The notes beneath the pieces are model-generated. The model searched no databases. It was not told the origin of the DNA and saw only the letters and a list, made by a program, of their open reading frames with translations. From IMG/VR virus record IMGVR_UViG_3300036846_000800, positions 1 to 64,000 of that record: 64,000 nucleotides of DNA, one strand, 5' to 3'. This DNA comes from a virus. Of this stretch, positions 1,068 through 63,425 are shown one piece after another (the stretch's first letter is position 1; each line of letters begins with the position of its first letter). A program made the translations under genes and the position numbers.

Positions 1068-1594
1068 CAGAACAAATCCCCTTGACGTTGCTCCTCGGTT
1101 TCCATGCTGCGGATGATGCGCTCGATGTCAGCGAAGTAGCTCACGGGATAAACCGCGAAACAGTGCGAGCCGGTACCGTTTGTCTTCTTGAAAAGTTTCT
1201 TCTCCGGTGCTGCGCCAGCATTGCGGCTCTTGAAAAGATCACGCGCAGCAGCACCAACCGCCCAGGTCTTCTGCGGCACAGGCTCGATCCTTAGCGCCCT
1301 GAATACATAGATGACGGTAATCCCCTCGTTGTCGTTACCAAGATCGGCAACATCGGCATAATCCTCGACATCCTCCTCCTCGATGATATTCGCCCGCTCC
1401 TGCTGATATGCCTCCTCCATGTCAGCTTTCCATTGCTCATCCTCCAGCTGACTGTAGAACCGAGCGAGACATTCCCGATGCACCGTCACTCCACCGTCTG
1501 GTGCGTCGTCGTAGGTCGCGCGCTGGAAATAACCACTGGTCTTGCCGCACACTGCACAACGACCAATCCAGGTCTTGCTCATGACTTGCTCCAT
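1067..1594 (-). CDS. Hypothetical protein with N-terminal zinc-binding motif
   Basis: 175 residues. Near the N-terminus CAVCGKTSGYF is followed by a VHRECLARF segment, a CxxC...HxxC arrangement that would bind one zinc. A very acidic stretch (EEEDVEDYADVAD) follows, then a more ordinary globular C-terminal half. It overlaps the methyltransferase gene upstream by 16 bases and is coupled to the helicase by TGATG, so it belongs to the same early operon. No family is recognised. A DNA- or protein-binding accessory role is only a guess. Confidence 0.65.
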   Translation of the reverse strand: MEQVMSKTWIGRCAVCGKTSGYFQRATYDDAPDGGVTVHRECLARFYSQLEDEQWKADMEEAYQQERANIIEEEDVEDYADVADLGNDNEGITVIYVFRALRIEPVPQKTWAVGAAARDLFKSRNAGAAPEKKLFKKTNGTGSHCFAVYPVSYFADIERIIRSMETEEQRQGDLF

Positions 1595-2163
1595 GTGATC
1601 CGGCTAAGGCTGATCGGCCCGGCATGCTCGCGCTCGAACACGAACCACGCAAAGGCGACGGTGCTGGTGGCCCTCGGCCCCGTCCAGCCATCGCGATGCA
1701 TCCTGGGTAACCTATTTCGAAATACCCACACTCGCGCGAGCGCACCGTCGACCAGATCGCTGCGCTTGGTTCCCTCCAGGAACGCGAGCCTGAGAAGCAT
1801 TACCACCTTGGGGCAAAGCTCGATGGCATGCCGAACGAACTGATCGGCCAATCGGTAAGGTGGATTGGTGACGATGCACTGACAGTCGGCCGGCGCCTGG
1901 GTCTCCAGCAAGAAATCCCAGCCAGTAAGAGTCCAGGTGCTACCGTAATTCACGACGTCGGAAGCAATAACCTCATGTCCTGCTTCGCGCAGCACATCGA
2001 CAATCCTGCCTCTGCCACAGGCGGGTTCCCAAATACGAGCCGGAAGCGGCTCAACCTTGAGGAGGGCTTTCACCGCCTCGGGCGGTGTCTCGTAGCAGTC
2101 CAAGCCGCGCTCGCTAAGGGCGTCGCGTCCTGGGTTTCCCGTGCTCGCCCGATTTGATGTCAC
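1579..2163 (-). CDS. SAM-dependent DNA methyltransferase-like protein (NPPY type)
   Basis: 194 residues with a class I methyltransferase core. IWEPACGRGRIVDVL (around 43-57) fits the SAM-binding glycine loop, ASDVVNYG fits the next acidic strand, and VTNPPY (around 98-103) is the catalytic motif of N6-adenine or N4-cytosine methyltransferases. It is short and lacks an obvious target-recognition domain, like many phage orphan enzymes. Phages use these to protect against host restriction. The start at 2163 overlaps the upstream small gene by 50 bases, so a later start is possible, but the methyltransferase core is intact either way. Confidence 0.8.
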   Translation of the reverse strand: MTSNRASTGNPGRDALSERGLDCYETPPEAVKALLKVEPLPARIWEPACGRGRIVDVLREAGHEVIASDVVNYGSTWTLTGWDFLLETQAPADCQCIVTNPPYRLADQFVRHAIELCPKVVMLLRLAFLEGTKRSDLVDGALARVWVFRNRLPRMHRDGWTGPRATSTVAFAWFVFEREHAGPISLSRITWSKS

Positions 2164-37783: not shown

Positions 37784-39592
37784 TTATAGCTTTATCATCA
37801 CATTCCAGTAAGTGCTCGGGCTCATGGTGTCTACCGGCGTACCGCTACCAGCAGCAACAGTCGTAACGCCGGTGGCAGCGCCGTAGATGCTAATGCCGGT
37901 AGTGCGCGTGTCGGTCCATGCCTGCTCGCCGTGCATGTACGGGACCGGAAACTGGTCGCCACCGTTATCGGAATGGTCCCAGCCGGATGGATTAAAGATG
38001 TGGGCATGGCCCGGATCGTAAACGGCGTGAGCATGATTCGGATCGCTGATGCCATGCGCATGGGAAGGCATATTGCCGAGAGTTATCGTCACCGTCTCAG
38101 TACCGTATGTTGCACCGAGCCCGCGCGCCGTCAGTCCAGCACCGCTGCCAGCAACCGCAATGCTGCGACCCAGTTGCTTCGTCAGTGTCATCCGGCAGTT
38201 TGCAGCCCACGCCGCTGCCGCAGTGCCCTGTGTCGCGCGCGTCGTCGCGGCTCCGCTGCTCGTTAATAGCGGCGCACTAGTGTCACTGATGTTGGCGAAC
38301 AACAGATTGAACAAGTCTTGGCAGTCAGCGTTCGCGCGCGTGCTAGAACCGGATGTGGCACTGCCAATCGTGCCATCATTCATCATCACCCAACCACTGT
38401 CGGCAATGACCTTGAGCGTGATCTTGGCATCACCGGTCGTAAAGCCCGTCGGTGGTGAAACAGCGGGAGCCGGCACCGGCGACACCTGCACCCACTGCAA
38501 ACTGTTGCCGTCATCAACGTAGATTGCCAGCGCACCGGTCGTCAGGTTGTACCAGAAGTCGCCGGGGACCGGCGTGGGTGAAGTCGGCGGTGTGGTCGAA
38601 GCGGTGTAGCGATTGGAGCCACCGCCGCTGCCGCCAGCGACAATGCTCCAGCCCAGGCTCTTACGCGCGTATTGCTGACCATCATTTGGCGCCTCTGGCA
38701 CCGGGCCAGTCGGGCCAACCGGGCCAGTCGCGCCAGTCGCGCCGGCCGGTCCGGTCGCGCCGGTCGGTCCAGTCGGGCCAGTCGGGCCCGGTACCGTGCT
38801 GCTGGCTCCAGGCGGGCCAGTCGGTCCAGCAACACCGGCTGGGCCAGTTGCGCCAGCAACACCTTGCGGACCCGGCGGTCCTTGCTGTCCATCCGGCCCA
38901 TCCACACCCGGCGGCCCGGATATACCTTGCGGCCCGCCCGGACCTTGCACACCCTGCGGGCCGGTTGGACCAAACGGACCCGAACTGCCCTGTGGTCCCT
39001 GCACACCCTGCGGCCCAGCCGGACCTTGTGATCCTGGCGGCCCCTGGATCGAACCGCCCGACACCCATGCAGTACCGTCCCAAATCCACAGCGAGTCGTC
39101 GGCAGTGACGATCCAAGCATCACCTTGAGTGTTGCCGGTCGGCGGCAGGGCACCCACCGTCGCCTTCGAGCCCTTCATGGTGATGCCGGTACCGGCCGCA
39201 CCCTGTGAGCCCTGAATGCCTTGCGGACCCTGCGGCCCCTGCGCCCCGGCGGCGCCGTCCACTCCAGCTGGTCCAGTCACCCCTGCTGGACCCTGCGGAC
39301 CAGCAGGACCCTGCGGACCACCAGGAGCACCTGGAATCCCCTGCGGACCCTGCGAGCCTGTCGCACCCGTTTGACCGCTCGCGCCTTGCGGACCCAGTGG
39401 ACCGGTCAACCCCGGATCGCCCTGCGCTCCGGTTGGCCCAGGTGGCCCCTGCGGACCGAGCGGACCCCGCGCTCCCGGCACGGCATGCTCGGCAACCGTC
39501 ACATCGATCCCGAGCAACTCATCGGGCAAAATCACATCAACGATAAACGCAGTGCTCTCGATCGCAACAATCTCGGGAGGAGCACTCATCAT
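37784..39592 (-). CDS. Collagen-like tail fibre with His-rich collar tip (602 aa)
   Basis: 602 residues. After a short N-terminal head domain, two blocks of Gly-x-y collagen repeats (about 40-130 and 185-300) are separated by a small beta domain with [19 protein letters not shown]. Another such domain follows ([20 protein letters not shown]). The C-terminal 200 residues are a tail-collar type tip with [19 protein letters not shown] and DPGHAHIF, His pairs that bind metal in short-fibre tips such as T4 gp12, ending WNVMIKL. The tip is duplicated in the protein at 51308. Likely receptor-binding fibre. Confidence 0.75.
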
Positions 39593-48249: not shown

Positions 48250-50565
48250 TCAGATGATACGCCCTAAACCACCACCTTGCGGCATGATCGGTAAGTTCGC
48301 GAACGTCTGCGCCACTGGTGTAGCCTCTGGGTGCACCAGCGCGCCCTGCACCAGTTCCATGTGCTTCTGCGCGAGCTTGGCGCCCTCGATGCGCTCTTGC
48401 GAGGCGCGCTGTTCACTCGCGGAACGTATTTTTGCGTTCTCGGTGAGCGCCTTGAGCTGCTGCGAGAGATATTCCAGCTCGGCCTTGCGCTTAGAGTCGG
48501 CTTCCTTTTGCGCCAGTTCGCTGGCTTTTTGCGACATCTCGGCAATCTTGCCGGCGACTTTCGGGTCCTGCTGGCTGTCCGGGGGCGCGAACAGCTCGTC
48601 CACGTTGCCCAGGCCCACCATGGTCGCCACCCGCCTGACCACGGCGTGCAGGTCCCACATTTGCGGATTGAGCTGAACCAGCTGCACCAGCGCCACCGCT
48701 TTCATCACCCGGATCGTGTGGGACGGCGTATTCGGATCGGCCTGCGGGGTGAGATTACAGTCGTTGAGTGCCTGAACCAGATCATCCTTTTCCCACTGCC
48801 AGCCCGGAACATTGGGCTTGGCGCAAAGCAAAGCCTCGGGGTCCTCGATGAACAGGTCCCGCAGCAGCTCAAACTCCTCCGCCTGCGACTGGTGCATGCC
48901 CTTGTGCACAGAGTCCAAGACTTTGACCGCTTGGTCGAGCATCGCAAGAGTCGTTCCGACCGGGACGTCCTGGCGGCCCTCGCCGACCATCAACTCGGGC
49001 GTGCCGCCTACCCGGCGCGCTTCCTCCTCGATCTTGGAAGTAATCTGGACGAGGCCGGCGGTGGCGTCTTTGTACGGCAGCGCCATCACGTTGTTGCCGA
49101 TCGGCTGACCGCCGGTGTTGATCCTCACCCCGGCGCCAAGCCCGACCCGGAACGTCATCGTATCTTGTCGACCCACGGTCTCCGAGTAGAAGAACCCCGG
49201 CCACGACGCGAACGCGGCGCTATCCAGCGCCAGCCGCCACGCGGTGGTGATCGCCGCCGTGGCATTGCCCATAATGTGTAGAAGACCGATGCCGTAGAAG
49301 CCCATGCCGTCGACAAACGTGTATTTCACAATCGGCATGTGCTTGATGTAACGATCGTCGTCTTCTTGCCAGTTGCGACGTACTTCGAGCACCGTCTGCG
49401 AGTCTTTGTCGATGGTCACCCGATAGGGGAGGGGTAATCCGGTATATTTGCCGGCTTCCTTGTGCTCGAAGCCGGCGATGTCCAGCTCGCAGTAGGTTTC
49501 GTACACCGTATGCTTGTAATCCTCCGGGCGCATCGAAAACGTGGACAGACCAGCGACGTCATGCTCGGCCTCGACCAGACTATCGACCTCGGGCGGGACC
49601 GGCGTGGTGAGATCGATGTCGATATAGGTGCCGGCGAGCTGCATCCGCTTCATCACGGACTGTCGCATTAAGATACGATGCGTGACCCGGCCGCACTCCT
49701 GCAGGGAGACCTCGTTATCGTCCACGATCACATCGGCCGCATCGATGGCGCGCGAAACGGGTCTACGCCGGATCGGATCGCGATAGACCTTCTTGAAGGC
49801 GCTGCCGCCAAAGCCCTGCTTGAAGAACATCCGGTTGGTGTCAGCGTAGTACTCTTTATCTACGACCGTGAGATACCTGTTGAAGAGTGTCTCCAGCATC
49901 TCCGCTTGAGTGTCTCGATCGTCGCCGCGCAGCTCGCGCGGGATTTTGAACTGCTGCTCCAAGAAATCCCGATGTGGGGTTTTCAAAGTCGCATCGCTGC
50001 GCATTTTCACCGGCCCCTCGGCCGGGAGCAATTCTCCCCGGGCGTTGGCCTGGAAGCGCAACACCGCGTCCAACAGGATAGGCGTGCGGATGGTGCTCTG
50101 GCCCTCGACCGCCGTGTCGGCATCTGCCGAAGGCGACCTGGGGTTCTCGATCTTCATCGCCAGATGTTTTATTCCGGCGGCGCGCCGCTCCAGCCACTCT
50201 TGTCGGGTTTGGAGGTCAGCGTCGATGCCGTTGAGCAGTTCATCGCAGATTCTGCCCAGCTCGCGATCATCGATGTACTCAGCGAGGTTGGCGTCGTGCT
50301 CCTTGGCGGCCCCGGAGGTGTTCTCCTTGCGCGGCGGCTTGCCGTCCAGACGTATTACGAGGCTGCCGTCAGCCTGCTCGATCCCGATTTGCCCTACCGG
50401 CTTCCCGGCGTCTTCCTGGATGACCACCGTGAGCGGGTTCTGATCATCCAGGTGAGACTCATAGTCGGGCAGTTTAGAGGGAATCTCATCGTCCAGATTA
50501 CGATAATGCTCGGTGGGGGTAACACCGTTGCCACTGCCATTCACTGAAGACGTTCCGTTGGCCAT
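48250..50565 (-). CDS. Portal protein, P22 gp1-like
   Basis: 771 residues. The long N-terminal part includes ELLNGIDADLQTRQEWLERR and STIRTPILLDAVLRFQANAR; the core has FFKQGFGGSAFKKVYRDPIR, ADVIVDDNEVSLQECGRVTH and NMVL-like membraneless segments. The stem-to-crown region has GFYGIGLLHIMGNATAAITT and a long C-terminal coiled coil (SELAQKEADSKRKAELEYLS). This is the P22-type portal, which forms a dodecameric ring for DNA entry and attaches the tail. Placement after terminase is as expected. Confidence 0.8.
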   Translation of the reverse strand: MANGTSSVNGSGNGVTPTEHYRNLDDEIPSKLPDYESHLDDQNPLTVVIQEDAGKPVGQIGIEQADGSLVIRLDGKPPRKENTSGAAKEHDANLAEYIDDRELGRICDELLNGIDADLQTRQEWLERRAAGIKHLAMKIENPRSPSADADTAVEGQSTIRTPILLDAVLRFQANARGELLPAEGPVKMRSDATLKTPHRDFLEQQFKIPRELRGDDRDTQAEMLETLFNRYLTVVDKEYYADTNRMFFKQGFGGSAFKKVYRDPIRRRPVSRAIDAADVIVDDNEVSLQECGRVTHRILMRQSVMKRMQLAGTYIDIDLTTPVPPEVDSLVEAEHDVAGLSTFSMRPEDYKHTVYETYCELDIAGFEHKEAGKYTGLPLPYRVTIDKDSQTVLEVRRNWQEDDDRYIKHMPIVKYTFVDGMGFYGIGLLHIMGNATAAITTAWRLALDSAAFASWPGFFYSETVGRQDTMTFRVGLGAGVRINTGGQPIGNNVMALPYKDATAGLVQITSKIEEEARRVGGTPELMVGEGRQDVPVGTTLAMLDQAVKVLDSVHKGMHQSQAEEFELLRDLFIEDPEALLCAKPNVPGWQWEKDDLVQALNDCNLTPQADPNTPSHTIRVMKAVALVQLVQLNPQMWDLHAVVRRVATMVGLGNVDELFAPPDSQQDPKVAGKIAEMSQKASELAQKEADSKRKAELEYLSQQLKALTENAKIRSASEQRASQERIEGAKLAQKHMELVQGALVHPEATPVAQTFANLPIMPQGGGLGRII

Positions 50566-50574
50566 CCCACGATA

Positions 50575-50925
50575 CTACCCGCTACCGAACCCAGCTTGAT
50601 CGGTGTACATCAGCATATTGCCAACAGCGAGCTTGGCCTTGCAGAGCCGAGCAACCACGATGCCATCCGTGTGCTGAACGGAGACGCCGACGCTGAGCGT
50701 CGGATCGTTGTTGCGTATATGCAGGGTCCTGACGTTGCGCTGAGTGGAAGCAGGCGGACCACCGCCAGCAACATTGGTCGTGGCCGCAGCGCTGATTGCA
50801 GTATTAGCTCGTCCGGGAGTGATGGTCCCGGCCGAAGTATCGACCCAACTCGCGTGTACGGTGACAGCCGCCGCCGAGTCGGTGACGACCTGCAATCGAT
50901 CGTTAATCGAGGTGAGCAGCAACAT
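50575..50925 (-). CDS. Small beta-domain virion protein, duplicate of fibre N-terminus
   Basis: 116 residues from ATG 50925, which aligns with the start of its paralogue; a GTG at 50949 is less likely. Reads LLTSINDRLQVVTDSAAAVT and RTLHIRNNDPTLSVGVSVQH. It matches the first 110 residues of the protein at 51308 (LASTTDKLQVVTESTGAINV, KTLHVNNSGTTNNTVTVQHT). Probably a trimeric or ring-forming beta domain on the virion. Function unknown. Confidence 0.6.
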   Translation of the reverse strand: MLLLTSINDRLQVVTDSAAAVTVHASWVDTSAGTITPGRANTAISAAATTNVAGGGPPASTQRNVRTLHIRNNDPTLSVGVSVQHTDGIVVARLCKAKLAVGNMLMYTDQAGFGSG

Positions 50926-50945
50926 CGCCTTTATCTTCCTCGGTA

Positions 50946-51311
50946 TCACTTTCCTTTGTGGAGAGCGACAAATGCATCTATTTCAGCCTTTTGTTGTGCA
51001 TGGAACGCATCAAAGCGCGCCTGTTCTTCGCGCTGCTTTCTAGCCTCGGCACGCTGTGCGGCCTGTTCCACCCGGGCGATCAAGTCATCGCCTTCCGGCC
51101 ACGGCATCGGACCGCCCGCGACAACATTGTTGTCCTTGACATAGGCGTGCCGCACACCCGGTTCATAGATGACCTCGGTCATGCCCCCGGGAAACGGCGG
51201 GGGATCATGTTGCCAGTCGTCTCTGAATTTGTGACGCTCTTCGAGATATTGCTTCTGCGTGTTGCACACACGCATGAAGCCGTCGGGATGGAGGTGGACT
51301 GCTGGTTTCAT
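50946..51311 (-). CDS. Hypothetical protein, possible fibre-associated chaperone
   Basis: 121 residues. The first half is globular (VHLHPDGFMRVCNTQKQYLE, MTEVIYEPGVRHAYVKDNN), the last 45 a charged coiled coil (ARVEQAAQRAEARKQREEQA). The start overlaps the stop of the fibre-tip gene, so it could be a fibre assembly chaperone; only position and layout support that. Confidence 0.45.
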   Translation of the reverse strand: MKPAVHLHPDGFMRVCNTQKQYLEERHKFRDDWQHDPPPFPGGMTEVIYEPGVRHAYVKDNNVVAGGPMPWPEGDDLIARVEQAAQRAEARKQREEQARFDAFHAQQKAEIDAFVALHKGK

Positions 51312-52255
51312 AGCTTTATCATGATGTTCCAGAACGACATGGGATGCAGGACGTTGAACGGCACCGAACCACCGGCACCAGCAATGCCGATGCCGGTATA
51401 TGAAGGAAACACATCATTGAGAGCATAGCCATCGCCCCCGTCGTTCACAAAATGACGATCGTGCGGGTCGTTTTCGCACAAAACTCGGGGCGGATGCTCG
51501 TGCGTTGGGTCGCTTACGCCATGGCCATGGAACAGCAACTCGGCTCCGGTCGGAGCATGGGTCTCTTCGCCCGCAAACCCGCCGAGTGCCCGGCCGGTGA
51601 GCCCCGGACCAGTACCAGCGATGGACAATGAGCGGCCGAGCTGCCGGGTCAACTGGATGGTCTTGTGCGCAGCCCAATCCGACGCCGCTGACCCGCCGCG
51701 ACCGCCGCTCACGGGTGCCCAGGTGTTGGCAATATTATTCCAGAGCAGCGTAAACAGGTTCAGGCAATCGTCGTTGGCCCTGGCGGTACCCCCGGACAGG
51801 GAATCACCGATGCTGCCGTCATTCATCAGCACCCAGCCAGCATCGGCCACCGTCTTGAGCGTGAGCTTGGCATCGCCGGTGGTCTGCCCCCCGAACCCAA
51901 GACTGCCGCCGCTGGCGAGAAGAAAACCGACCTCATCGATGTATTGCAGCGTCTGATCTGGCGGAAGCAGCATTCTATGCATCTTGGCGACCACAGTGCC
52001 GTCGGTATGCTGCACCGTGACGGTATTGTTGGTCGTGCCGCTATTGTTCACATGGAGAGTTTTGACATTGCGCTGCACGCCGCTGTTGGGTGCGGCCACG
52101 ACATCCGTAATAGCAACGACGCTGATGACAGTATTCTGGCGGCCGGGGTTCACCGAGCCTGCCACGTTGTCGAGGTAGCTGGCGTGGACGTTGATCGCGC
52201 CCGTGCTTTCGGTAACAACCTGGAGCTTGTCGGTGGTAGAGGCAAGAATCAGCAT
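51308..52255 (-). CDS. Short fibre: beta head domain plus His-type collar tip (315 aa)
   Basis: 315 residues built from two modules found elsewhere in the window. The N-terminal 120 match the protein at 50575. The C-terminal 190 match the tip of the collagen-like fibre at 37784: GDAKLTLKTVADAGWVLMND, RQLGRSLSIAGTGPGLTGRA, then FHGHGVSDPTHEHPPR and a MSFWNIMIKL end. His pairs suggest metal binding at the tip. It is likely a short tail or head fibre sharing receptor chemistry with the long one. Confidence 0.65.
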   Translation of the reverse strand: MLILASTTDKLQVVTESTGAINVHASYLDNVAGSVNPGRQNTVISVVAITDVVAAPNSGVQRNVKTLHVNNSGTTNNTVTVQHTDGTVVAKMHRMLLPPDQTLQYIDEVGFLLASGGSLGFGGQTTGDAKLTLKTVADAGWVLMNDGSIGDSLSGGTARANDDCLNLFTLLWNNIANTWAPVSGGRGGSAASDWAAHKTIQLTRQLGRSLSIAGTGPGLTGRALGGFAGEETHAPTGAELLFHGHGVSDPTHEHPPRVLCENDPHDRHFVNDGGDGYALNDVFPSYTGIGIAGAGGSVPFNVLHPMSFWNIMIKL

Positions 52256-52295: not shown

Positions 52296-52320
52296 AATCC
52301 CCTCGATTCGCTAGGGGGTT
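52296..52320 (-). terminator. Imperfect hairpin after the 52319 gene
   Basis: AATCCCCT (52296-52303) pairs with AGGGGGTT (52313-52320), one mismatch, overlapping the TAA of the minus-strand gene. There is no T run; possible weak terminator or processing site ahead of the fibre gene. Confidence 0.3.
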
Positions 52321-52636
52321 ATCTTTGCCCGCCGTTGCCCTTGGGCAGGATCGGCGCCGGCATCCAGGCGCGCGGCGGCTTGTGCGGCATTCCCGCCGAG
52401 GTACGCCACTCGCCCAGCTGGCTCTGCGCCATATAGACCAGTCCCTCCTCACACGCGCACTGCAGCAGCACGTCCAGCGGCGGCGGGATACTCATACTTC
52501 GCCACGCCGTGCGCGCATACTCAGTGAGCTTGTGCTCGATGGCAGCGATCTGTGCCAGCTGTATCTGATCGTAGACCCGCTCCGACCAGTGTCGCAGGAA
52601 GCTCTCCTCGTCAGTGTCACGAATGTTTTCGATCAC
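52319..52636 (-). CDS. Hypothetical protein next to the Acb2-like gene
   Basis: 105 residues. A helical N-terminal two thirds (SFLRHWSERVYDQIQLAQIA, LQCACEEGLVYMAQSQLGEW) and a Pro-rich tail. It overlaps the Acb2-like gene by four bases, so the two are co-translated. No family recognised. Confidence 0.55.
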   Translation of the reverse strand: MIENIRDTDEESFLRHWSERVYDQIQLAQIAAIEHKLTEYARTAWRSMSIPPPLDVLLQCACEEGLVYMAQSQLGEWRTSAGMPHKPPRAWMPAPILPKGNGGQR

Positions 52637-52854
52637 GATCTAGGTGCCCCGTCCGCCTCGCGCGTGATCGCGACGTTGGCCCACATCGCGACCTCGCGCA
52701 GCTTGCGCAAGACGTAGGTTTTATCCGGCCCGTCCGGCACGATCTGTTCGAGCAACGCACCATAGACCGTGGTGGCAAAGCGCACCTGTCGCATCTGCTC
52801 AAACTGCTTCTCAGTTGGCTTGAGATAATCGAACGTCTCCGGGTGCAGGGTCAT
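52633..52854 (-). CDS. Acb2/Tad1-type cyclic-nucleotide sponge candidate (anti-CBASS)
   Basis: 73 residues. The pattern FDYLKPTEKQFEQMRQVR, then LEQIVPDGPDKTYVLRKLRE and VAMWANVAITRE, agrees with the small helical-hairpin family of Acb2 proteins (LxxAxMWANAAIAR at the C-terminus is its hallmark). Acb2 binds cyclic di- and trinucleotides and blocks CBASS and related defences; Tad1 relatives bind gcADPR. The assignment is by eye from the motif, and binding residues were not checked. It lies directly downstream of the terminase gene and is coupled to the 52319 gene. Confidence 0.65.
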   Translation of the reverse strand: MTLHPETFDYLKPTEKQFEQMRQVRFATTVYGALLEQIVPDGPDKTYVLRKLREVAMWANVAITREADGAPRS

Positions 52855-52865
52855 ATTCGTTCCTA

Positions 52866-52895
52866 GCGGTTCCAGACTTATCGGTTCCAGACTTG
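52866..52895 (-). repeat. 15-base tandem duplication at the end of terL
   Basis: GCGGTTCCAGACTTA (52866-52880) is followed by TCGGTTCCAGACTTG (52881-52895). The inner copy encodes the last codons of TerL and its TAA; the outer copy repeats VWNR and a TAG in frame, so readthrough would add four residues. Confidence 0.8.
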
Positions 52896-54590
52896 TGGCT
52901 GCGGCGGAAGCACGTAATTCGGTCCGCCCCAGGCCGGATACAGCGGCGACGGCTCGCGCTTGTATTGCTTGTCGATGACGTCCTCCAGCTCGTCCTCATC
53001 CGGCAAGGTGGCGAGGCCAAGCGCGCGAAAATGCGTCAGCGCCTGTGACATGGCGTCGGCCAGATCGTCGTGCGCGCCCTTCGGCATGTCGGCACATTCC
53101 GACATCACTTTCTCGGCCCAATCCTTGAACAGATAATCGCCGTTGCCGGTGGGCTCGGCCGGCGCATAGATCAGCCCGCACTCGAACAAATTCTGCACGG
53201 AGTACATGCGCGCGACCTTGTCGCCTTCCGGGTTGACCAGAGTCACGCCGAAGTCGGCGCGATCCAAAGTCTTCGGATTATGCGAGAGCGAATCAGCGAT
53301 GTGGCGGGCGCGTCTTCGTAGTTCTTGTGCCACCGGGTGTCCCGAGGCTTTGTCCTCGACCAAGACTCTATCAACTTTGAACTTCTTGCAGGTTTCCTCG
53401 ATCTTTTTGATCAAGTCGTAGAGTTCGAGCCGCTCGGCCCACGCCCACATCAGGATTAATCTTCGATTTTCCCAAATATCACGGCAGACGCCTAAGACGA
53501 CGCCGGCCGACGGGTCGTTTTGCTTTTTTTCGGTTTGTGCGGTGTCTAAGGAGAGCACGGTATAGCTCATCACTGGGAACTTCGGCCAAGGCACACCAAA
53601 CTTGCCGCAATCCTCCGGTGTGTATGCACGCCAGTGTTCCCGCTTGATGATGCCGCCACCACGTGGGGCCGGGCGCTGTTGATATTGCCCGGCATAGGCA
53701 AAACTCCCTTTCTCGCGCTCGATCTTGGCGACTGCTTCCGGCGAAAACCGCTCTGGCCACGCTAGGTCTCCCTCTTCGGTGCGCGGATCGACCCAGCCGA
53801 TAGTGTTATACGGCTCGCGTCCAGCCTCGAACTCCATCGGCACCATCAGATGGCAATAGGTCCATCCCTGTTCGAGGATGAAGCCTGAAATATCCAGCTG
53901 ATGCACTCGCTGCATGATGATGACGATGGCCGAATCGTCAAGGTTATTAAGCCGGTCGGTGATCGTCTCACGGAACCATCGAACCGTATCGGTCCTAACG
54001 ATGTCTGATTCGGACTTGTGGACGTCATGAGGGTCGTCAATGACGACACGATCTCCACGTTCACCAGTACCGATTCCTTTGACAGACGAAGCAAACTTGG
54101 ACCCGGTCTTGTTGTTGGTGATTTTGATCTCGCCTTCTTTCTCAAGCTGGAATTTCTCACCCCACAGCTCCTTGAACTTGTCGCTCATCACCAGCTTGCG
54201 GAACTTGGTGTTGTCTCTTTCGGTCAGGCCAGAGCTATACGAAAAACTCACGTAGCGCAGGTGCGGCATGTTCATGGCGCCCCATTCCCAGGCCGGCCAA
54301 AACACGTTCACCATCAGCGACTTCATGCTTCCGGGAGGGATGTTCACGAGCAATCTGGTGATTTTCCCCAAGGTCACCGCTTCCAGGTGCTCGCATAGTG
54401 CATATAACAGCCAGCCCTCAACCAACTTGGTTTCGGGTTCCAGGATGTTCCAGAAATATCTGACGAACTCGATCAGCCCACCCGCTTGCGCTTGACGTTT
54501 GCGCTCGTCGCGAAGAAACCTCTCCTTGCGCAACGTGACCAGCGTCTGTTCCGCCAGCTCGGGGGTGAGGGGCTCATCACTTGTCTTCAT
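52878..54590 (-). CDS. terL: Terminase large subunit
   Basis: 570 residues. ATPase: PPGSMKS Walker A (85-91) and VVIDDPHD Walker B (182-189, DD at 185-186). Nuclease: SLDTAQ (347-352, Asp349), VEDKASG (411-417) and DDLADAMSQA (508-517). It packages DNA through the portal ring. The start at 54590 overlaps the RHH gene by four bases. The first metal Asp and the other nuclease residues are intact. A 15-base duplication sits at its stop. Confidence 0.92.
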   Translation of the reverse strand: MKTSDEPLTPELAEQTLVTLRKERFLRDERKRQAQAGGLIEFVRYFWNILEPETKLVEGWLLYALCEHLEAVTLGKITRLLVNIPPGSMKSLMVNVFWPAWEWGAMNMPHLRYVSFSYSSGLTERDNTKFRKLVMSDKFKELWGEKFQLEKEGEIKITNNKTGSKFASSVKGIGTGERGDRVVIDDPHDVHKSESDIVRTDTVRWFRETITDRLNNLDDSAIVIIMQRVHQLDISGFILEQGWTYCHLMVPMEFEAGREPYNTIGWVDPRTEEGDLAWPERFSPEAVAKIEREKGSFAYAGQYQQRPAPRGGGIIKREHWRAYTPEDCGKFGVPWPKFPVMSYTVLSLDTAQTEKKQNDPSAGVVLGVCRDIWENRRLILMWAWAERLELYDLIKKIEETCKKFKVDRVLVEDKASGHPVAQELRRRARHIADSLSHNPKTLDRADFGVTLVNPEGDKVARMYSVQNLFECGLIYAPAEPTGNGDYLFKDWAEKVMSECADMPKGAHDDLADAMSQALTHFRALGLATLPDEDELEDVIDKQYKREPSPLYPAWGGPNYVLPPQPQVWNR

Positions 54591-54790
54591 CCCTGCTCAT
54601 CCTTGTCTTTCTTTCCCAGCTCCCGGCGCAGGATCATTCGCATCCAGCCGCTGAGCGACAACCCGAGCGCGTTTGCGCGCGCGCAAAACCCGCGATCCTC
54701 CTCGGCATTGAGGCGAATCATCACCGATATATCACGCCGGCCCGCCTTAAAGCGGGTGCCGCGCTTAATCTTGCTAATCATGCTTGTCAT
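54587..54790 (-). CDS. Small ribbon-helix-helix-like protein upstream of terL
   Basis: 67 residues (64 from the ATG at 54781). Basic start, then ISVMIRLNAEEDRGFCARAN and LGLSLSGWMRMILRREL, an Arc-like strand-helix-helix pattern. It is coupled to terL by a four-base overlap. It could be a regulator of late genes or a packaging-site DNA binder; a separate terminase-small-like gene exists at 60003. Confidence 0.55.
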   Translation of the reverse strand: MTSMISKIKRGTRFKAGRRDISVMIRLNAEEDRGFCARANALGLSLSGWMRMILRRELGKKDKDEQG

Positions 54791-56057: not shown

Positions 56058-56314
56058 CCAAGAAGCCCAGCAAGCGAACTGCTGCTGCCGATGTGATGAT
56101 CACCCAAGCGACCGACCCGCTGGCAGCGCAACAAGACGAGCCCGTGAACGAGCCCCCCGTGACCATGCGGGTGAACTCGTTCACCGATCTGGCGACCATG
56201 CGCGAGCAAGCCTCACGGCGGCGCAACACCACTGCCAACACCATCGCCGAGCTGGTGGAATGGCGCAGCGAGATCGATGCCACCATCGCCTATCTGCGGG
56301 CGCAGGAAAAATAA
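56054..56314 (+). CDS. Small helical hypothetical protein
   Basis: 86 residues starting at ATGA. The disordered basic start is followed by a helical RRRNTTANTIAELVEWRSEI. Part of the same coupled cassette. Unknown. Confidence 0.5.
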   Translation: MTKKPSKRTAAADVMITQATDPLAAQQDEPVNEPPVTMRVNSFTDLATMREQASRRRNTTANTIAELVEWRSEIDATIAYLRAQEK

Positions 56315-56327
56315 AGGAACCAACACC

Positions 56328-56684
56328 GTGAGTGACGTCTTCGCTGAGGATACCACCTTCGCTAAAGAACCCGGCGCGGTCGCGAGCGAGCATCAGCGCT
56401 TAATGCGACAACTAGCGCGCGCTACCTGGGAGAAGGGCGTGGCGCAGGGCTCGCACCAGCGGCTACGCACCGCCATCACGCTGGCGCTGCAACTGAGCCA
56501 CGGCGGCACCGACATTGCCGACATCCAAAGATTGTTAGCCGCAGTGCTGGAGGTCGATGACCAAATCCTGCAGCACACCGTTTCGAAGGACACCGGCCCG
56601 ACAAAAGACGTCGCGAAGGATATCACGCCGGAATACCCGGCGGATCATCCGGCTCCAGGTGACTTGGGGACCGTGCCGCTGTAG
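56328..56684 (+). CDS. Helical hypothetical protein, last of plus cassette
   Basis: 118 residues from GTG 56328, chosen for AAAGGAACC upstream. Helical middle (ALARAT-like QLARATWEKGVAQGSHQRLR, IQRLLAAVLEVDDQILQHT) and an acidic, Pro-rich tail. No family recognised. Confidence 0.5.
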   Translation: MSDVFAEDTTFAKEPGAVASEHQRLMRQLARATWEKGVAQGSHQRLRTAITLALQLSHGGTDIADIQRLLAAVLEVDDQILQHTVSKDTGPTKDVAKDITPEYPADHPAPGDLGTVPL

Positions 56685-62514: not shown

Positions 62515-62667
62515 ATGGAAAGCCTCGCCCTCTCCTTCGCCGCGCTGGGCCTGAGCGGCATCAGCATGACCCTCTCCTGGCTTGGGCGCTACACCCAAGC
62601 CACCTCCTACGCCCTCGGCGCGATCGCCTGCGCTTGTGGTGCGATCATCCTCGCAGTGTGGGGCTGA
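62515..62667 (+). CDS. 50-residue membrane protein
   Basis: Reads MESLALSFAALGLSGISMTL, SWLGRYTQATSYALGAIACA, CGAIILAVWG. Two hydrophobic helices around a short polar turn. It starts one base after the 62513 stop (TGACATG), and the next gene starts two bases after its stop. Unknown. Confidence 0.55.
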   Translation: MESLALSFAALGLSGISMTLSWLGRYTQATSYALGAIACACGAIILAVWG

Positions 62668-62669
62668 CC

Positions 62670-63425
62670 ATGACCCCCGAAACCCTCATCGCCCAGGGCG
62701 CCTTGTTCGTCGTCAATCACTCAGGCGGCAAGGACTCGCAGGCCATGTTCATCAAGCTCCTGGAGCGCGTGCCGGCCAGCCAGCTGCTGGTGGTGCACGC
62801 CTCGCTGGGCGAGATGGAGTGGCACGGCGCGCTGGAGCTGGCCCAGGCGCAGGCCCAGGCCGCTGGCGTACCCTTCATCGTGGCACGGTCCGACAAGTCT
62901 CTCCTGGACATGGTCGAGCGTCGGTTCGCAGCGCGCCCCGAGGTGCCGAGCTTCCCGAGCGCTTCGCACCGGCAGTGTACCTCTGATCTCAAGCGCGGGC
63001 CGATCGAGCGCGAGGTGCGCCGCTATGCCAAGGCGCACGGTCTCACCCTGATCGTGAACTGCACCGGCATCCGCGCCCAGGAGAGCCCCTCCCGCGCCAA
63101 GGTGCAGGTGTTCACCAGGAACGAGCGCAACAGCGCCGCAGGGCGCTCCTGGTTCGATTGGGCGCCCATCCACAGCCTCACCACCCTCGATGTGTTCCAG
63201 AGCATCGAGCGCGCCGGCCAGCAACCGCATCCGGCTTATGCCGCCGGCAATCAGCGCCTGTCGTGCGTGTTCTGCATCATGGGCTCGCGCCATGACATCG
63301 CCCTGGGCGCCAAGGCCCGCCCCGAGCTGTTCGCGCGCTACGTCGAGCTGGAGCAGCGCACTGGTTACACCATGCATATGAGCCGCAAGTCCCTCACCCA
63401 GCTGGTCGCGGAGGCCGCGCTATGA
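62670..63425 (+). CDS. PAPS-reductase/DndC-family phosphosulfate-type enzyme
   Basis: 251 residues from ATG 62670. PP-loop HSGGKDSQAM (17-26, SGGKDS), then LLVVHASLGEMEW, SASHRQCTSDLKRGPIE, NCTGIRAQESPSRAK, W-x-P (DWAPIHSLTTLDVF) and HPAYAAGNQRLSCVFCIMGS with a conserved cysteine pair. These are PAPS reductase superfamily features. In phages such proteins may alter sulfur metabolism or take part in DNA modification; the latter is unproven here. It is co-translated with a zinc protein. Confidence 0.75.
   Translation: MTPETLIAQGALFVVNHSGGKDSQAMFIKLLERVPASQLLVVHASLGEMEWHGALELAQAQAQAAGVPFIVARSDKSLLDMVERRFAARPEVPSFPSASHRQCTSDLKRGPIEREVRRYAKAHGLTLIVNCTGIRAQESPSRAKVQVFTRNERNSAAGRSWFDWAPIHSLTTLDVFQSIERAGQQPHPAYAAGNQRLSCVFCIMGSRHDIALGAKARPELFARYVELEQRTGYTMHMSRKSLTQLVAEAAL

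Follow-up and report, generated by a model that had tools for sequence, protein, structure and literature searches.

A predicted Acb2/Tad1-type sponge encoded beside the terminase large subunit gene of an uncultured phage

The open reading frame for a 73-residue protein lies directly behind the gene for the terminase large subunit (terL) of an uncultured phage, and the question that this locus raises is whether the product serves DNA packaging, like its neighbour, or counters host defence. The window, by which we mean the whole 64,000-bp stretch of DNA analysed here, comprises positions 1–64000 of a 71,103-bp IMG/VR virus record and has a G+C content of 61%. On the strength of sequence comparison and a structural model, we give a probability of roughly 0.78 to the reading that the protein, which falls in the phrog_1454 branch of the Acb2/Tad1 hairpin family, is an oligomeric sponge predicted to sequester cyclic-nucleotide immune signals.

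The gene occupies 52633–52854 on the minus strand, 3′ of terL (52878–54590, minus strand; PF17289, E 8e-10; phrog_38, E 1e-80), with 23 bp between the terL stop and its own start. A Shine–Dalgarno-like AGGAA (52855–52865, minus strand) precedes the ATG, the sequence 5′ of the start being AGGAACGAAT-ATG. The first-pass annotation had pointed to a distinctive turn and C-terminal end in this frame, and both are found in the 73-residue translation, as VPDGPDK at residues 39–45 and VAMWANVAITRE at residues 55–66. Compared with its closest relative (L002), the gene has a dN/dS of about 0.27 (0.218/0.809, NG86) and is shown by this codon comparison to be under purifying selection. Its place in a late block after terL, also proposed earlier, is real in this genome; however, it does not fix the time of expression, because relatives also have the gene in a divergently oriented operon or close to genes for replication.

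On the minus strand, terL and the predicted sponge are followed by gp105, by further genes for small proteins and, still within the packaging block, by an SU10-type portal protein (48250–50565, minus strand; phrog_1216, E 1.5e-19; PF23899 just below the cut-off). The start of gp105, a 105-residue protein (52319–52636, minus strand), overlaps the stop of the sponge gene by 4 bp (GTGA), which makes translational coupling of the two plausible. Searches of gp105 against Pfam, PHROG and PADLOC profiles gave no significant family match. It can now be given a place, since in relatives a homologue is conserved after TerL with or without a sponge between the two, and normally comes directly after TerL with none; such a homologue is seen in L036, L045, L058, L088, L090 and others, with a sponge nearby or not, and gp105 is, judged by gene order, part of the packaging block. 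Other genes in the window deserve mention in their own right. A 67-residue frame at 54587–54790 (minus strand), which overlaps the terL start by 4 bp and has a sub-threshold NikA-like match of ribbon-helix-helix type, is possibly a small terminase or a regulator. A related domain (TDKLQVVTESTGAINVHASYLDNVAGSVNPGR...) occurs in three copies in the structural region (50575–50949, 51308–52255 and 37787–38446, minus strand), and relatives carry two copies of it between TerL and portal. A PAPS-reductase-like protein (phrog_424; 62634–63425, plus strand) and a DNA methyltransferase (phrog_799; 1579–2163, minus strand) are possible host-takeover or counter-defence genes.

Family membership is the firmest part of the argument. 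The 73-residue protein matches PF24729 (Acb2_Tad1_hairpin) over profile positions 2–58 of 58 with 35 bits and an E-value of 1.6e-8, above the curated Pfam gathering cut-off of 27 bits, and matches phrog_1454 with an E-value of 2.8e-13; it is the sole PF24729 match in the whole 71,103-bp record. A scan of viral contigs gave 136 confirmed relatives, of which 80 homologous IMG/VR loci were kept (identity 54–77%), and all 58 distinct aligned relatives match PF24729, with E-values up to 0.01, and match no other family. Across the alignment of these window-like proteins, here called class A, P13, Q17, M21, R25, G42, D44, T46, R50, R53, W58, N60 and G69 are invariant, and the near-invariant positions include F8, Y10, L11, K45, T64, R65, D68, P71 and R72. 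Class A was also found in two cellular genomes, one Rhizobiales assembly and one Verrucomicrobia metagenome-assembled genome. Direct sequence searches of the PDB with the protein or the class A profile returned no sponge, and PADLOC-DB profiles gave no match to it; PADLOC holds mainly defence models, not anti-defence ones.

The predicted fold points the same way. An AlphaFold2 model built on the 58-sequence alignment is an antiparallel two-helix hairpin (helices 15–38 and 43–64) with a pLDDT of 96.5, and its first Foldseek match in the PDB is 7uq2, T4 Vs.4 with cGAMP (probability 0.98, TM 0.67, E 0.21), Acb2 of a Pseudomonas phage (8h2x/8h2j) following at ranks 7 and 10 with a probability of 0.33. 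All Foldseek E-values against the PDB are above 0.1, which we ascribe to the small size of the protein; the probabilities are in line with the profile match. Among viral models (BFVD), 18 of the 20 best matches are named Acb2/Tad1 hairpin proteins, with probabilities of 0.98–1.00. The assignment to Acb2/Tad1 made by the first-pass annotation, including the accession PF24729, is thus borne out by both profile and fold, the structural comparison that it proposed having yielded a helical hairpin with T4 Vs.4 as best PDB match, and the protein joins a known family as a new member.

How it relates to the individual members of that family is more varied. T4 Vs.4 is a proven cGAMP sponge, and PHROG 717 was the source of its homologues (Jenson et al., PMC10097602); it shares with the window protein PF24729, the helical hairpin, an N-terminal tyrosine, a basic residue at the K23 position and a conserved MW-A motif in helix 2. 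The two differ in that the window protein belongs to PHROG 1454, has the short PDGPDK turn where Vs.4 has a long loop, ends in an additional conserved DGSPR, and is encoded next to terL rather than among vs genes. In Mycobacterium phage BigBubba, gp102 carries the annotation of a CBASS antagonist (PMC11953737). It is itself in phrog_1454 (E 1e-29) and has the P-x-G-x-(D/E)-K turn and the WAN-AI-R end, with 40% identity over 42 residues of the hairpin; it differs in having histidine where the window protein has Y10, in the absence of the DGSPR end and in its place among replication and accessory genes. Pseudomonas phage Acb2 (8h2x, 8h2j, 8ixz) has the hairpin fold, consistent with its weak Foldseek match, but is some 20 residues longer and shows no sequence match in the direct PDB searches. 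Acb2 homolog 43, whose structure is solved (PDB 9ptq), is a hairpin with the turn motif PEGREK; it is matched by BigBubba gp102 and by a mixed-family profile (E 3e-5); its relation to the window protein is indirect. Tad1 (7uav, 8smd, 8kbe) has a C-terminal hairpin domain covered by PF24729, and the mixed-family profile gives a weak match to its structures (E ~0.3). Unlike the window protein, it has an N-terminal beta-sheet domain (PMC12043709), and no such sheet is present in the model of the 73-residue protein.

Whether the ligand site of Vs.4 is kept as well can be approached residue by residue. In Vs.4, cGAMP is contacted by Y8, H11, K23, R79 and F82, the F82A change weakens binding more than 25-fold, and L29, A66, A73 and A77 lie at the hexamer interface (PMC10097602). 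We mapped these by hand from the Pfam end points (Vs.4 7–83 to profile 1–58; window protein 10–65 to profile 2–58), with T4 Vs.4 alone as the reference. On this mapping Y8 corresponds to Y10 and K23 to R25, both kept, while H11, R79 and F82 correspond to P13, V61 and T64, so that three of the five contacts are not kept; the K23/R25 and H11/P13 pairs assume an ungapped helix 1. The interface residue A77 corresponds to A59. Within class A, Y10 is conserved in at least 90% and R25 is invariant, and the class has a conserved C-terminal end of its own, T-R-x-x-D-G-S-P-R. The tyrosine that stacks and its basic partner thus appear to be kept and the C-terminal half of the pocket not. The class does not simply retain the pocket of Vs.4, and we infer a sponge with a modified ligand site whose ligand may differ from that of Vs.4.

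Gene order was compared in related phages. A search for related TerL proteins gave 50 IMG/VR records (identity 73–87%), and exactly one PF24729 protein is present in 34 of them, 27 being above the cut-off and two cut by contig ends. With the window added and the two cut sponges left out, 33 placements can be compared: relative to terL the sponge gene lies 5′ on the same strand in 23, 5′ on the opposite strand in six and 3′ on the same strand in four, one of which is the window. Class A accounts for 20 records plus the window; another 12 carry class B, which has the motif M-S-x-G-E-x-x-V-x-x-x-F-N-P-S-G and falls in phrog_717. On the terL flanks of related phages L173–L199, class B is seen in the place near terL that class A takes elsewhere. 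Outside this TerL clade, class A adjoins unrelated terminases, portals, Sak4, SSB and DNA polymerase genes, mixed neighbours such as an accessory gene has. Since class A is replaced around terL by members of the PHROG of Vs.4, there is good evidence that the two classes do the same kind of job.

This exchange also weighs against a role in packaging, in which the hairpin fold would be shared but the protein would be an oligomerising packaging or assembly accessory, e.g. a small terminase subunit. The gene adjoins terL here, and in 26 of the 33 clade records no more than about 1 kb separates the two; a small terminase was not identified in the window. However, the gene is dispensable, since some long records of the clade, among them G029 (71,071 bp), G049 and G050, have zero PF24729 matches; its order and strand change freely within the clade, its relatives elsewhere adjoin Sak4, SSB or DNA polymerase genes, and its fold matches that of Vs.4. 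We consequently rejected adjacency to terL as a mark of a packaging role, given the varying position and strand and the long records that lack the gene, and consider such a role improbable. Loss of activity in a decayed or vestigial sponge is more improbable still: the window protein lacks a C-terminal tail that is found on 18 related sponge proteins, but most relatives lack it likewise, the motifs are intact and the low dN/dS speaks against decay.

A more serious competitor, although one that we hold to be only possible and that is a sub-case of the sponge reading, is a sponge for a signal outside CBASS, such as the cyclic ADP-ribose of Thoeris, a cyclic oligoadenylate or a decoy nucleotide. 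It would account for the loss of three of the five Vs.4 cGAMP contacts and for the strong conservation of the class-specific T-R-x-x-D-G-S-P-R end, and sponges of the superfamily bind several types of signal (PMC12043709); the retention of Y10 and R25 leans the other way, and nothing stands directly against it. We infer that the anti-CBASS label is probably right, yet 'Acb2/Tad1-type sponge of unknown ligand' is the safer one, because those contacts are not kept. For a sponge in this wider sense, the hairpins would form an oligomer resembling a hexamer, and pockets between its subunits would bind a cyclic nucleotide or a cyclic ADP-ribose-type signal, with Y10, R25 and the C-terminal segment T64-R65-x-x-D68-G-x-P-R72 as candidate contacts. 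The signal would come from CBASS, Thoeris or type III CRISPR systems of the host and would be held and not degraded, keeping the effector off and allowing the phage cycle to be completed. In this genome the sponge gene would share a transcript with the packaging genes.

The C-terminal tail is a subject of its own. It consists of 17 residues, EYPADHPxxGDLGSVPL with a variable fourth position (E-Y-P-x-D-H-P-x-x-G-D-L-G-S-V-P-L), and is found at the end of many proteins of both classes. Tail-only searches, with the window included, gave 22 tail-bearing contigs, on which the tailed protein is of class A in 15, of class B in three and another small protein in four (window, L091, L109, L207); we saw it in the window, L045, L048, L049, L058, L086–L101 and L207. 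In the window it forms the last 17 residues (EYPADHPAPGDLGTVPL) of a 135-residue protein of unassigned family (56277–56684, plus strand), for which a search for relatives found none and a single-sequence AlphaFold2 model was poor (pLDDT 57). In records searched whole, the tail occurs once per record as a C-terminus. Of the four cases with the tail on another small protein, three (window, G012, G020) have an untailed class A sponge encoded elsewhere in the record. One tail per clade genome is nonetheless not a rule, as G004, G001 and other long records have none by the patterns used. Nor is the tail a DNA element: synonymous codons are used interchangeably in it (GAC/GAT 8:7, with four Leu codons and three stops), and it is thus the peptide that is conserved. 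Searches of named phages and the PDB with the tail gave zero matches. The cargo-loading peptide of Thermotoga encapsulin ends in GGDLGIRKL (quoted in PMC7565527); the two have just G-D-L-G and the final L in common, a resemblance that serves as a lead but tests nothing. That the tail is a transferable targeting tag, e.g. for capsid loading, which would make 56277–56684 an unrecognised injected counter-defence protein, is a long shot, and the tail may just as well serve in partner docking, localisation or turnover.

These observations add a clade of uncultured phages, represented in IMG/VR, to the range of the Acb2/Tad1 sponges, and the swap of two distant sponge classes around terL favours a sponge function for the PHROG 1454 branch, as yet uncharacterised. 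Were the tail indeed a loading tag, the sponge, or elsewhere other small proteins of counter-defence, would be carried in the head and delivered together with the DNA. Common to sponges and unrelated small proteins, the tail offers a handle for finding new counter-defence proteins.
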